DNA of 6,526 nucleotides from Deltaproteobacteria bacterium RBG_13_61_14 (GTDB lineage: Bacteria > RBG-13-61-14), in the NCBI GenBank assembly GCA_001797815.1, contig MGQK01000128.1, positions 1 through 6,526 on the forward strand, in the 5' to 3' direction. The notes under the pieces are model-generated. The model searched no databases. It saw only the letters and a program-made list of their open reading frames with translations, and had not been told where the DNA came from. Shown piece by piece: positions 265 through 5,630 of this stretch. Both the position numbers and the translations under genes were made by a program. Each line of letters starts with the position of its first letter. Positions within the stretch are counted from its first letter, which is position 1.

Positions 265-300
265 TTCACCACAGAGACACAGAGAGCACAGAGAAAGGGA
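265..300 (-). repeat. Dispersed intergenic repeat, copy 1 (inverted relative to copies 2 and 3)
   Basis: This copy lies in the gap between the ATPase stop and the short MCE gene. Bases 267-296 are a perfect 30-base reverse complement of 830-859. The core reads CCACAGAGACACAGAG on the + strand. A third, slightly diverged copy is at 5593-5630. The element is built from CAGAGA/CACAGAG-like units and resembles a repeat class I recall from many environmental bacterial genomes, where it is sometimes mistranslated as HRDTE-type peptides. Its purine-rich right end, AGGGAGA at 296-302, could serve as a ribosome binding site for upstream start choices of the next gene. Confidence 0.85.
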
Positions 301-337
301 GATCATTTGCTTGCAAATGGATTCAGGAAAAGAAACC

Positions 338-343
338 GGGAGG
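338..343 (+). promoter_or_regulatory. Shine-Dalgarno sequence supporting the ATG at 347
   Basis: GGGAGG lies three bases before the ATG at 347. The spacing is short but usable. A competing purine tract (AGGGAGA, 296-302) is eight bases before a TTG at 311 and fourteen before an ATG at 317, so the start of this gene is not settled by ribosome-site strength alone. Confidence 0.45.
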
Positions 344-346
344 CCC

Positions 347-817
347 ATGAAGCGTCCGTTCTATAAGGGACTGGCCCTGGGAATTATCCTGGGGATCATC
401 GGAACGGTGGCGTGGAACATGTTTGAATTTGATGCGGATGAGACCATAATGCTCCGGGACAATTTGTTCTTTTTGGAAACCCATATGGATCATGCTTGCG
501 GTTTGCTCCGTTATGCTCCGGTAAAAATCATGGGAATTACAAGCGGCAAAATCGAAAAGATCCTTCTTGAGGGTGAGCCGGGCCAGCAAACCGTGAAAGT
601 TCAATTCTTGTTGATGAAGGATAGGGCTAAATATATCGCCCGCAGTAATCCGAACCTGAATCTGAAAGCGGATGTAGACCCGACCTTCAGCTATGCAAGA
701 AGTAAAGCCGAAGGGTCGTTAGGAGATAGTTATCTTGATATTCATCCTGGGGATCCCCGAAAAGTAGGCGTTATCGAAGATGGTGGCACAATTCGAACTC
801 TAAACTGTTTGAAATAA
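347..817 (+). CDS. Short MCE-domain (MlaD-like) protein, paralogue of the downstream MCE gene
   Basis: A 156-residue protein with a basic N-terminus (MKRPFYKG), one membrane segment at about residues 8-25 and one MCE domain at about 35-140. MCE proteins sit in the inner membrane and form rings that carry lipid across the periplasm for MlaFE-type transporters. The motif RYAPVKIMGITSGKIEKI (55-72) matches RYAPVKVHGISVGKIERI in the next gene. Over 53 aligned residues around it I count 23 identities. GSLGDSYLDIHPGDP also matches GLLGDNLVQIYAGDP. I chose ATG 347 because from there the two paralogues align from residue 1 to about 103 with a single one-residue shift. Starts at TTG 311 or ATG 317 would add up to 12 residues. 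Unlike its partner it ends right after the domain, a size near classical MlaD. Its base composition is lower in GC: 25 of 60 bases at 601-660, against 39 of 60 at 1141-1200 in the roughly matching part of the partner. Inverted repeats flank it. Confidence 0.85.
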   Translation: MKRPFYKGLALGIILGIIGTVAWNMFEFDADETIMLRDNLFFLETHMDHACGLLRYAPVKIMGITSGKIEKILLEGEPGQQTVKVQFLLMKDRAKYIARSNPNLNLKADVDPTFSYARSKAEGSLGDSYLDIHPGDPRKVGVIEDGGTIRTLNCLK

Positions 818-827
818 GATTTCTTAC

Positions 828-867
828 TCTTTCTCTGTGCTCTCTGTGTCTCTGTGGTGGAAATTCT
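828..867 (+). repeat. Dispersed intergenic repeat, copy 2
   Basis: Bases 830-859 are the exact reverse complement of 267-296, so copies 1 and 2 form a 30-bp inverted pair around the short MCE gene with about 530 bases between them. Bases 834-861 are also identical, in the same orientation, to 5597-5624, and both copies continue into a similar AATTCTT tail. The copy fills the gap between the two MCE genes. The ribosome binding site of the next gene (GAAGGAG, 869-875) follows directly. Confidence 0.88.
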
Positions 868-883
868 TGAAGGAGATTGAACC

Positions 884-2074
884 ATGCGCCGGCAAATGAT
901 TCAGAACCTGGTGGTAGGCATCTTCACCGCGGCGGTGCTGGCCTACGGCATGTATTTCGTGTACCAGACCTCGGAGGAAAGCACGATCCTGCTCAACAAG
1001 ATCACGCTCTACACGATCATGCCCAATGCCATGGGGCTCAAGCGCTATGCGCCGGTCAAGGTGCACGGGATTTCCGTGGGCAAGATCGAGCGGATCTGGT
1101 TTTCGGAAACTCCGGGCGAGGACAAGGTTTACCTGGAGATGAGCATGAGCGCGGACTACATCAACCGGGTGGCCATCTCCAACCCCGACCCGGAAGCTCC
1201 GGCCAACCAGGCCGAGCCGGACGGGATGGTGATTTACTCCTACATCTCGGTTGAATCGGAAGGCCTGCTGGGCGACAACCTGGTCCAGATTTACGCCGGA
1301 GACCCGGAGCGGGCCAAGGCGGGGGCGTCGAAGCGGATCCGGACGGCGGCGGTGCGCATGGTCAAGGAAGAGTGGGAGAAGCAGGAAAAGACCTGGGATG
1401 AAGCCGCGGCGGGGCCTGAGATCCAGGCTAAGGTCAAGCTGTTGAGCAAGGACCTGATCGGCCTGGACACCGGGCACGTGGAAGAGGGGTCCTGGATCAG
1501 TGTCAAGAAGGGCGGGGCCGGGCTGGCCGGGATCACGGATTCGATTGACCCGCTGGTTTCTTCGCTCACCAGCCTGCTCGACGAGGCCAAGACCCAGCCG
1601 GGCCTGATCCATGCTTTGATCTACGATCCGGAGATTCCGGACAAGCTCAAGGGGGTGCTGGGCGACGTGCAGGGTGTGCTGGACGAGGTGGATCACGGCA
1701 CCGGCAACCTCCACACCCTGATCTACGGCGACGACGTGAAGAAGGCCCTGAACGATGTCTCCCAGGTGACCGGCTCGGTCCAGGCGATTATGGACGACCT
1801 GGAGAAAAAGAAAGTGGTGGACAACATCAAGGGCACGTTGGCCAACGTGGAAGATATCACGGCGATGATCAAGGAAGGCAAGGGCACGGTGGGCGCGCTG
1901 ATCACGGACAAGTCGCTGTATGAGGATATCCAGGCGATCCTGGGTTCGGCCAGCCGGAGCGCGGTGGTCAAGGAGGCGGTGCGCTACACCAAGGAGCGGG
2001 GCGAGAAGCAGATCGAGAAGGAAAAGAAGAAGGAAGAGAAGCAGCAACAGAAGCAGCAGCCGTCTCCGCCTTAA
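884..2074 (+). CDS. MCE-domain lipid-transport protein with long C-terminal extension (MlaD-type)
   Basis: A 396-residue substrate-binding/ring component of an Mla-type phospholipid transporter, likely working with the ATPase at 1-260. The start is clear: GAAGGAG (869-875) with normal spacing to ATG. One membrane segment lies at about residues 8-28 (LVVGIFTAAVLAYGMYFVY), so the rest faces the periplasm. The MCE domain covers about 36-142, with RYAPVKVHGISVGKIERI (54-71) and SEGLLGDNLVQIYAGDP (125-141). From about 150 onward the protein is mainly helical and charged. Three related segments follow: QPGLIHALIYDPEIPDKL (238-255), GTGNLHTLIYGDDVKKAL (272-289) and GKGTVGALITDKSLYEDI (332-349), a repeat style common in the C-termini of longer MCE proteins. 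The last 30 residues are a Lys/Glu/Gln tail ending PSPP, probably disordered. No lipobox is visible. A terminator follows 20 bases after the stop, so this is the last gene of the operon. Confidence 0.93.
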   Translation: MRRQMIQNLVVGIFTAAVLAYGMYFVYQTSEESTILLNKITLYTIMPNAMGLKRYAPVKVHGISVGKIERIWFSETPGEDKVYLEMSMSADYINRVAISNPDPEAPANQAEPDGMVIYSYISVESEGLLGDNLVQIYAGDPERAKAGASKRIRTAAVRMVKEEWEKQEKTWDEAAAGPEIQAKVKLLSKDLIGLDTGHVEEGSWISVKKGGAGLAGITDSIDPLVSSLTSLLDEAKTQPGLIHALIYDPEIPDKLKGVLGDVQGVLDEVDHGTGNLHTLIYGDDVKKALNDVSQVTGSVQAIMDDLEKKKVVDNIKGTLANVEDITAMIKEGKGTVGALITDKSLYEDIQAILGSASRSAVVKEAVRYTKERGEKQIEKEKKKEEKQQQKQQPSPP

Positions 2075-2142: not shown

Positions 2143-2394
2143 ATGAACCCGATGGACCGTCGCCGTTTTCTCGTGGCCTCGCTGGGCGCGGCCGCGGTCT
2201 GGGCCAAAAATCTCCCAGCCCCGGTGCCCAGCCTGAGGACCACCATGGGATATAAGATTCATCTGTCCCGTGTTTTCCATACCTACCCTGCGGAAACTGG
2301 TTTTGCTGGAGTTTTTCATAGACCTGATCCGATTATTCGAATTGTCGCAAGGCCCTTTGAGCCATCCAAGAGCAAGTCTAGATTTCAATGGTGA
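2143..2394 (+). pseudogene. Tat-signal-bearing gene remnant (83 codons)
   Basis: The frame starts with a good ribosome site (AGGAAGGGA, 2131-2139) and a convincing twin-arginine signal, MNPMDRRRFLVASLGAAAVWA. This resembles the start of the glycosidase at 3632 (MNPEVDRRRFLAASFGVSAA). After about residue 22 the character changes. The sequence turns more AT-rich and the translation (YKIHLSRVFHTYPAETGF and on to SKSRFQW) shows no domain I recognise and no recognisable signal-peptidase site. It ends at 2394, overlapping the first codons of the SGNH gene. I read it as the 5' end of a Tat-exported protein gene whose body has been lost or replaced, with the break somewhere between about 2212 and 2250. 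The similarity to 3632 is at motif level, with many third-base differences, so a recent duplication is unlikely. It could instead be a genuine small exported protein. Confidence 0.45.
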
Positions 2395-3635
2395 GCCAAT
2401 TGGAAGGAATCCGTTTGCCGAGCGAAATTCGCGGCCGCCGCTCATGGCTCAAGAAGTCCGCCTTTATTCTGTTCACTCTGCTTCTCATCTTTGTCCTCTC
2501 TAACCTGTTGGCGCTGCGGCTCTTCTATTGGCGCTGGCCGGCCCAAGGTTTTTTCGAACCGGATGCTTATCGTGGAGTTCGTCTCAAGGCCAATTTAAAT
2601 TTAAGCTTGCCCATCTCATTCTCAAAGCCCAAACGCTACCATGGGGCTCGATATCGCGTCCTCACGGATGCGCGGGGAATTCGGATCCCGGCTTCGCCTC
2701 CGATCCCGTCCGCCTCTCCTGGGCAAAGCTTCACCATCATCTGCTTAGGAGATTCGAATACCTTCGGATGGGACGTAGATGCGGAGTGGGCTTATCCAGC
2801 TCAGTTGGCGGGGCTGCTGAGGACCCAATTGCGAATCCCGGACGTCCAGGTCGTCAATGCCGGAATCCCCGGTTATACCTCTCGGCAAGCCCTCGCTTAT
2901 CTGAGCCGAGAATTGCTGGCCTTGCATCCGGAGGTCGTGAGCTTCGCTTTCGGCATTCATGAGGGCGTGCCCAGCTCCGGTCGATCCTGGTACCCACTCT
3001 CCGATTTGAGAGACGCCGACCTGATCAAGGGCGACTCGCTCGAACGCTGGAACCCCATCACCCTCTCGCTCTCCCAGCGCCTGAGAAGCGACGCCCTTCG
3101 TCTTCCTATCCTGACCATGTTCCGCTTCATCTATTCGAGGATCAAACCCTTCGATTCCGACCGCTTTCTGACCTTGGCGCAAAGTCAGCCTCAAGATAGA
3201 TCTTATAACTATCAGGGTTCCCGCGTTCCGCCTCACTATTTTAAAAGCGACTTACTGGACTTATTTGAATTGGGCCGCCGGCATTCCTTTCTTCCCATCG
3301 TTCTGGTCACTTACAGCAGCATCTTTAAATATCAGCAAGTGGCCGAGAGCGTTTGCCAGCGGCAGGGGATTCCATTTATTAGCATCCACGAGCGCTTCAA
3401 ATCCTTCCAACCCCGAGAATTGCAGCAACGTCCCGAACTCGCTGAGCTGGGTCGGAATTACTGGCAGCTTCTGGGACCCTCCGCTTTACCGGAAGACCCC
3501 CGGCTCTTGCTTACTACCGATGGAGGGCACCCTAACCCGCTGGGCCATCGCCTCATCGCTGAAGCTATGCTTCAGGCGCTGCAGTCGCGGGGGATAGGGG
3601 CGGCGCCTGGACCTGAGCAGGAGAAAAAGAGATGA
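2388..3635 (+). CDS. Membrane-anchored SGNH/GDSL-family hydrolase
   Basis: A 415-residue protein with a basic N-terminus (RGRRSWLKK), one membrane helix at about residues 24-47 and an extracytoplasmic SGNH domain. Block I is ICLGDSNTFGWD with the candidate nucleophile Ser123. Block II is VVNAGIPGYTS with Gly159. Block V is TTDGGHPNPLGH with Asp378 and His381, the DxxH pair. Block III, normally GxND, reads FGIHEG (189-193): the oxyanion-hole Asn is replaced by His191. The family hydrolyses esters such as acyl or acetyl groups on sugars, lipids or glycans; the substrate here is unknown. ATG 2388 has a weak ribosome site. A TTG at 2415 (codon 10) has a much better one and would give 406 residues with the same anchor. 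The stop overlaps the next start in ATGA, so the two genes are probably coupled. GC content looks lower than in the glycosidase that follows, which may mean separate ancestry. Confidence 0.88.
   Translation: MVSQLEGIRLPSEIRGRRSWLKKSAFILFTLLLIFVLSNLLALRLFYWRWPAQGFFEPDAYRGVRLKANLNLSLPISFSKPKRYHGARYRVLTDARGIRIPASPPIPSASPGQSFTIICLGDSNTFGWDVDAEWAYPAQLAGLLRTQLRIPDVQVVNAGIPGYTSRQALAYLSRELLALHPEVVSFAFGIHEGVPSSGRSWYPLSDLRDADLIKGDSLERWNPITLSLSQRLRSDALRLPILTMFRFIYSRIKPFDSDRFLTLAQSQPQDRSYNYQGSRVPPHYFKSDLLDLFELGRRHSFLPIVLVTYSSIFKYQQVAESVCQRQGIPFISIHERFKSFQPRELQQRPELAELGRNYWQLLGPSALPEDPRLLLTTDGGHPNPLGHRLIAEAMLQALQSRGIGAAPGPEQEKKR
2402..2409 (+). promoter_or_regulatory. Ribosome binding site pointing to an alternative TTG start at 2415
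   Basis: GGAAGGAA ends five bases before an in-frame TTG at 2415, codon 10 of the SGNH hydrolase frame. The upstream ATG at 2388 has only a weak AAGAG-like tract far ahead of it. The TTG start would remove nine residues that carry no visible feature and would also free the gene from overlap with the Tat remnant. Confidence 0.4.
3619..3635 (+). promoter_or_regulatory. Ribosome binding site and ATGA overlap coupling the SGNH hydrolase and glycosidase
   Basis: AGGAG (3619-3623) lies inside the last codons of the SGNH gene, eight bases before the ATG at 3632. That ATG overlaps the TGA stop at 3633-3635. This arrangement usually means the two proteins are made together from one message. Confidence 0.8.
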
Positions 3636-5580: not shown

Positions 5581-5592
5581 TAAGGCCCCTTC

Positions 5593-5630
5593 TTTTTCTG
5601 TGCTCTCTGTGTCTCTGTGGTGGAGAATTC
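5593..5630 (+). repeat. Dispersed intergenic repeat, copy 3
   Basis: Bases 5597-5624 are identical to 834-861, in the same orientation as copy 2 and opposite to copy 1. The tail GAGAATTCTT matches the AAATTCTT tail of copy 2 with small changes. It lies in the gap before the ABC permease gene, about 4.7 kb from the other two copies, which shows that the element is dispersed and not a local tandem. Confidence 0.85.

Follow-up and report, generated by a model that had tools for sequence, protein, structure and literature searches.

The window analysed here, the whole 6,526 nt at positions 1 to 6,526 of contig MGQK01000128.1 (assembly GCA_001797815.1) from Deltaproteobacteria bacterium RBG_13_61_14, opens with the end of an MlaF-like ABC ATPase gene, followed in the same sense by two genes for MCE proteins, here called MCE1 and MCE2 (Table 1). 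The matches of the ATPase fragment, whose GC and GC3 are 0.562 and 0.86, include a weak one to MlaF (PRK11831, E 2e-7). MCE1 lies between two inverted-repeat arms of 31 nt each, which are 100% complementary and have 531 nt between them; a comparable inverted pair arises in none of the window shuffles. The left arm is made of three CACAGAG units, CACCACAGAG.ACACAGAG.AGCACAGAG.AAAG. An earlier reading of the window, made from the sequence only, had reported perfect inverted repeats of 30 bp (267-296 and 830-859) around the gene; the repeats are exact as reported, but they are 31 bp long.

Table 1. Coordinates of features at the locus and of a separate element elsewhere in the same genome
Feature	Position	Strand	Basis or remark
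MlaF-like ABC ATPase gene, 3' end, cut by the contig end	3..260	+	weak ABC-ATPase matches
Left inverted-repeat arm	267..297	-	exact complement of 829-859
Possible ribosome-binding site of MCE1, GGGAGG	338..343	+	inferred by direct reading of the sequence
MCE1, 156-aa MCE/MlaD-domain protein, intact frame	347..817	+	PF02470, E 5e-9
Right inverted-repeat arm	829..859	+	complement of the left arm
MCE2, 396-aa MCE protein	884..2074	+	PF02470, E 1.5e-10
Third, solitary repeat copy	5592..5622	+	30/31 (97%) complementary to the left arm
209-bp MITE copies	L017 1997-2205, also L019, L020, L022, L023, L025

The MCE1 unit occupies the spacer between the ATPase gene and MCE2, in the sense of the operon. 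Only 11 nt separate the MCE1 stop from the right arm, and removing 267-859 would leave a spacer of 30 nt between the ATPase gene and MCE2, with the ribosome-binding site of MCE2 (AAGGAG, 870-875) intact. MCE1 was the only gene found inside 267-859, where open reading frames and a domain search gave no GxxExxY gene. There is no recombinase gene in the window; positions 1-2100 had no match among plasmids, and searches against viral contigs, tRNAs and Rfam returned nothing. A perfect palindrome, CATTTGCTTGCAAATG, stands at 304-319 between the left arm and MCE1 and may serve as an operator or belong to a promoter. Further along the window, a GDSL-hydrolase gene (2388-3635) has a GC3 of 0.64, below that of its neighbours. 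It is preceded by a short ORF (2143-2394) whose twin-arginine-like start resembles that of the gene at 3632, and may represent a second insertion that interrupted a gene.

Both MCE1 and MCE2 score above the curated cut-off of PF02470 (MlaD/MCE), with 36.7 and 41.6 bits against 25.1, and they are 37-38% identical over about 140 aa, so the short gene is a paralogue of the next, as had been proposed. What they share with MlaD/MCE proteins is the PF02470 domain and a place 3' of an MlaF-like ATPase gene; MCE1 differs from MCE2 in lacking the C-terminal region of the latter and in being framed by repeats. The much lower GC of MCE1 had also been remarked on, and the counts given for it, 25/60 at 601-660 and 39/60 at 1141-1200, are correct (0.42 and 0.65). 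Over the whole genes, GC and GC3 are 0.459 and 0.497 in MCE1 against 0.608 and 0.864 in MCE2, and the segment 267-859 has a GC of 0.458 inside compared with 0.560 and 0.603 outside. The GC3 of MCE1 falls at about the 4th percentile of 113 sampled genes of its own genome, a sample enriched for repeat neighbourhoods. In a tree, MCE1 and MCE2 are sisters (support 97/95). The nearest relative of MCE1 in 386 genomes is MCE2 (E 5e-18) and the runner-up stands at 2e-6; the sisters having no comparable relative there, an old duplication inside the operon lineage is indicated. The MCE1-MCE2 pair was sought in genome contigs and gave no match, and both genes are absent from the two same-order genomes compared. 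Two more MCE operons of this genome include an ATPase gene, and each has a single MCE gene; the same is true of the MCE loci of two same-order genomes.

The repeat is dispersed, as the sequence-only reading had supposed: its 17-nt core has 19 exact copies in the 4.74-Mb genome, and the reversed control pattern has 0. Allowing up to 3 mismatches gives more than 100 copies, in CACAGAG and CACAAAG subclasses, against 42 for the control at that looseness. Copies less than 1.2 kb apart are arranged (-)(+) in 24 cases and (+)(-) in 3, which means that copies come as pairs with CCAC outermost. Solitary repeats are nevertheless common. One of them, on contig C33 (L003 2075-2091), falls within an Eco57I-type methylase gene, whose reading frame continues through it and translates it as FHHRDTESTEG; peptides of this kind may mark these repeats in annotated proteins. 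Most pairs in the genome have a spacing of 34-113 nt and are empty, and the closer ones form stable hairpins (-67 and -44 kcal/mol), which may affect transcripts. Over all 25 pairs, the two arms of a pair resemble each other more than they resemble arms of other pairs, but this does not hold in the CACAGAG class alone, so the exact identity of two arms is not proof of a single event.

Of the gene-sized pairs, those on contigs C53 (456 nt) and C75 (527 nt) enclose GxxExxY genes, and the one in the window (557 nt) encloses MCE1. At C75:35249-35809, paired arms surround a GxxExxY gene whose neighbours, both in the same sense as it, are a KorD/OorD-like ferredoxin gene on one side and a VorB-like 2-oxoacid oxidoreductase alpha gene on the other; this position is of the same kind as that of MCE1. 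The left arm of the window and an arm of this unit are identical over the 30 nt compared, from 4 nt outside CC to 26 inside. A larger unit on the same contig (C75:32042-33808, arms 1.7 kb apart) contains a GxxExxY gene and, between it and the right arm, a gene of 370 aa with sharply low GC (C75:32610-33719; L027 2611-3720) that matches the PDC-S11 models of defence candidates (E 1.5e-38). GC is 0.446 inside this unit and 0.655 and 0.698 outside, with the step at the repeats. The third framed GxxExxY gene, on C53, has more diverged arms of the CACAAAG class. The genome holds four GxxExxY genes in all, one of them with an in-frame stop. The 24:3 arrangement, and the C75 units bounded by arms at which GC steps, agree with the earlier suggestion that the repeats act as the ends of a unit.

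The arms and GxxExxY also occur together in other genomes. All seven searched genomes with exact cores carry GxxExxY, which is found in 23 of 96 genomes (about 2e-5, calculated by hand, if the two were independent). A GTDB-wide scan of 84,980 species genomes with the pattern CCACAGAGNCACAGAG-(509-567)-CTCTGTGNCTCTGTGG gave 35 loci in Acidobacteria, Planctomycetes, Cyanobacteria, Proteobacteria, Chloroflexi, Lentisphaerae, Nitrospira and others, several of them from MAGs in which single contigs are possibly misassigned. GxxExxY lies inside 25 of these loci and is absent from 10. In a planctomycete (L084), the unit is filled by an intact SUKH (SMI1/KNR4) gene (PF14568, PF09346). In a Pyrinomonadaceae MAG (L103), an intact secreted-type protein of 165 aa is encoded in the order arm-cargo-arm-GxxExxY-arm, with one arm common to both units. 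The remaining loci without GxxExxY are long gene-free pairs or arrays. A search for other genes framed by the same pair, as had been advised, thus leads to GxxExxY in the genome itself and occasionally to SUKH and secreted-protein genes elsewhere. MCE1 is not the sole non-GxxExxY gene in such a frame, given the L084 and L103 cases; such genes are a small minority.

The association holds when the genes are chosen without regard to repeats. Flanking inverted repeats with a score of at least 13 accompany 24 of 30 GxxExxY genes taken from a family search; among 308 control segments of the same contigs, 2 reach that score. With a score of at least 18, the counts are 20 of 30 and 0 of 308. The arms are three tandem units of about 8-10 nt, such as CACAGAG, CGCAGAT, CACGAAG, CGCCGAT and CACGGGG. 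On the GxxExxY tree, the GAT/non-GAT class of the arms changes 2 times where 6.7 changes would be expected, and none of 300 shuffles gave fewer than 5; in the subset taken without regard to repeats, the changes are 2 against 6.3 (minimum 2), and for all arm classes 10 against 17 (minimum 14). With so few changes, the arms therefore evolve in step with the protein, even between unrelated hosts. The interiors of 24 GxxExxY loci are on average 0.10 lower in GC than their flanks (23 of 24 lower, p 1e-6), and MCE1 is likewise lower than its surroundings. All 17 aligned GxxExxY proteins keep E and K of an ExK motif as well as Q and Y of a QxxxY motif, and the preceding D is almost invariant, as would be expected of an active PD-(D/E)XK nuclease.

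Traces of mobility were sought among related genomes. A 236-bp stretch with a gene-free CACAGAG pair in one genome (G048) is replaced by 25 bp in another of the same genus (G109), and the same spacer in G104 holds an unrelated repeat family of AGGGGCGTA type (L174 and L175 compared with L169 6000-10000). G109 also has the GxxExxY unit found in G048. G104 and G107 were considered as empty sites for it and rejected, as alignment shows about 45 bp of the GxxExxY 3' end at decayed sites; the remnants show loss, not gain, of the unit. A pre-insertion site was found for no GxxExxY unit, and a scan of 78 pairs for target-site duplications gave a best offset of +0.12 over permuted pairs, with no coherent length. 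Six copies of 209 bp in the genome of the window were also set aside as proof that CACAAAG pairs move: they belong to a separate MITE (at least 6 copies, 93-97% identity, TTAA target duplications, outer ends CCCGGAAAATGCA), inside which the CACAAAG pair lies. The distribution, the covariation and the composition nevertheless make it likely that the CACAGAG/GxxExxY class is mobile.

The anatomy and distribution of the units, the association of the arms with GxxExxY, the covariation of arm and protein, the GC steps at the arms and the rare other cargo are direct observations. The explanation that we prefer, at almost an even chance, is that 267-859 is a cargo unit without GxxExxY that carries MCE1, its arms being the terminal inverted repeats of a CACAGAG-type GxxExxY unit. 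The arms match that class in having three inverted CACAGAG-like units with CCAC at the outer ends, and the unit is called GxxExxY-less and not a full member because only MCE1 lies inside. GxxExxY, as a small PD-(D/E)XK nuclease, would recognise and cut the three-unit arms, and units without the gene would depend for their movement on GxxExxY supplied in trans from another locus of the genome. Our inferences are that GxxExxY mobilises such units, that 267-859 moved in one piece and that it brought MCE1 along. It had been remarked that a unit with no transposase would need a helper; this fits, since the genome has four GxxExxY genes and the window unit none. Insertion is supported by the composition, the tight packing, the single-MCE operons, the clean 30-nt spacer and the low chance of a double landing, two rough models giving 0.016-0.07 for a gene-sized (-)(+) pair from 35 independent copies. 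A point against it is that, for a unit landing at random, the sisterhood of MCE1 and MCE2 would be a coincidence and is unexpected.

The main rival explanation starts from that sisterhood. MCE1 may be an old tandem duplicate of MCE2 that has always been resident, with repeats landing on both sides separately or by a composite step; its low GC would then reflect weak constraint, and the pair, which may now act as a cassette, would not have brought the gene. MCE1 and MCE2 are mutual best matches in the 386 genomes as well as sisters, and solitary repeats in spacers are common, with one in the window itself. Yet an old duplicate (about 38% identity) should share the local GC3 of 0.86, and MCE1 stands at 0.50; the other ATPase-bearing MCE operons of the genome and the same-order MCE loci have one MCE gene; and the models above make it improbable that two copies landed independently, in this orientation, on either side. 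Because the closest relative of MCE1 is its neighbour MCE2, an enclosed resident duplicate is nearly as likely as insertion; we hold it to be a substantial possibility that falls short of an even chance, and place insertion of the MCE1 unit slightly ahead of enclosure in place.

Three further explanations are far less probable. REPINs are short inverted doublets with palindromic REP arms and a Y1 transposase (RAYT) as partner (PMC3116915). The repeats studied here resemble them in forming short inverted doublets, mostly extragenic and many per genome, and a Y1_Tnp gene is present on contig C83, so that RAYT could have moved REPIN-like repeats and MCE1 could have been caught between them by chance. 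The arms are, however, tandem CACAGAG units that can enclose genes; a single arm forms no hairpin (0.0 and -1.0 kcal/mol), unlike palindromic REPs, and the consistent companion is GxxExxY, a PD-(D/E)XK protein. The C83 Y1 (RAYT-like) gene (L021 3229-3687), the only one seen in the loci examined, has different, palindromic flanking repeats, CCCACCCTTC...GAAGAGTGGG. We regard this origin as very unlikely. The same applies to the proposal that the repeats never moved and serve only as transcription or RNA-processing signals around MCE1. The strong hairpins of closer pairs and their place in spacers would suit such signals, but one spacer differs between members of a genus in having a pair or not (236 bp against 25 bp), the arms bound foreign composition, one copy lies in frame in the methylase gene, and the GxxExxY link is left unexplained. 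Least probable of all is an invertible switch: the arms would recombine, inverting 297-829 and switching MCE1 on or off. The sequence-only reading had raised it, and the arms are indeed exact and inverted; no copy or relative shows the inversion, gene-free pairs are the majority, the window has no recombinase gene, and 31 bp is short for homologous recombination.

The window feature is filed as a GxxExxY-less variant of a repeat-bounded class, and not as a REPIN, a MITE or an invertible segment. It has the arms found around GxxExxY genes (NCBIfam TIGR04256, Pfam PF13366 PDDEXK_3) in this genome and elsewhere, with an MCE gene in the place of GxxExxY. MITEs likewise have inverted ends, no enzyme gene and many copies, but the CACAGAG class gave no target duplication, and the TTAA MITE of the same genome is distinct. 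The 23S rRNA intervening sequences and S23 genes (TIGR02436; PMC4990558) are comparable as units of about 0.4-0.5 kb with one small gene. The TIGR02436 (S23-type four-helix-bundle) genes examined here (L118-L145) are, like GxxExxY, mostly framed by inverted tandem 7-mer repeats; the arrays are different (GGTTAGC and AGAAGAC, for example) and the protein is unrelated. The framing is a sibling of the GxxExxY arrangement. In the open literature searched, no description was found of GxxExxY with repeats or of these repeat sequences, and the mini-element family is apparently undescribed.

At a little short of an even chance, we propose that GxxExxY genes with inverted tandem-unit ends make up a very widespread group of mobile elements of about 0.45-1.8 kb, in which the nuclease would co-evolve with its three-unit ends. 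These ends would also give rise to pairs without the enzyme and occasionally carry unrelated genes, such as MCE, SUKH, secreted-protein or PDC-S11 genes. CACAGAG, CGCAGAT and CACGAAG repeats recur across many phyla, and the link to a small nuclease gives them a testable origin. It also offers a candidate function for GxxExxY, a family known only by its sequence motif. Together, the arms and the nuclease suggest a very small vehicle that may shuttle single genes, such as MCE1 and defence candidates, between bacteria.
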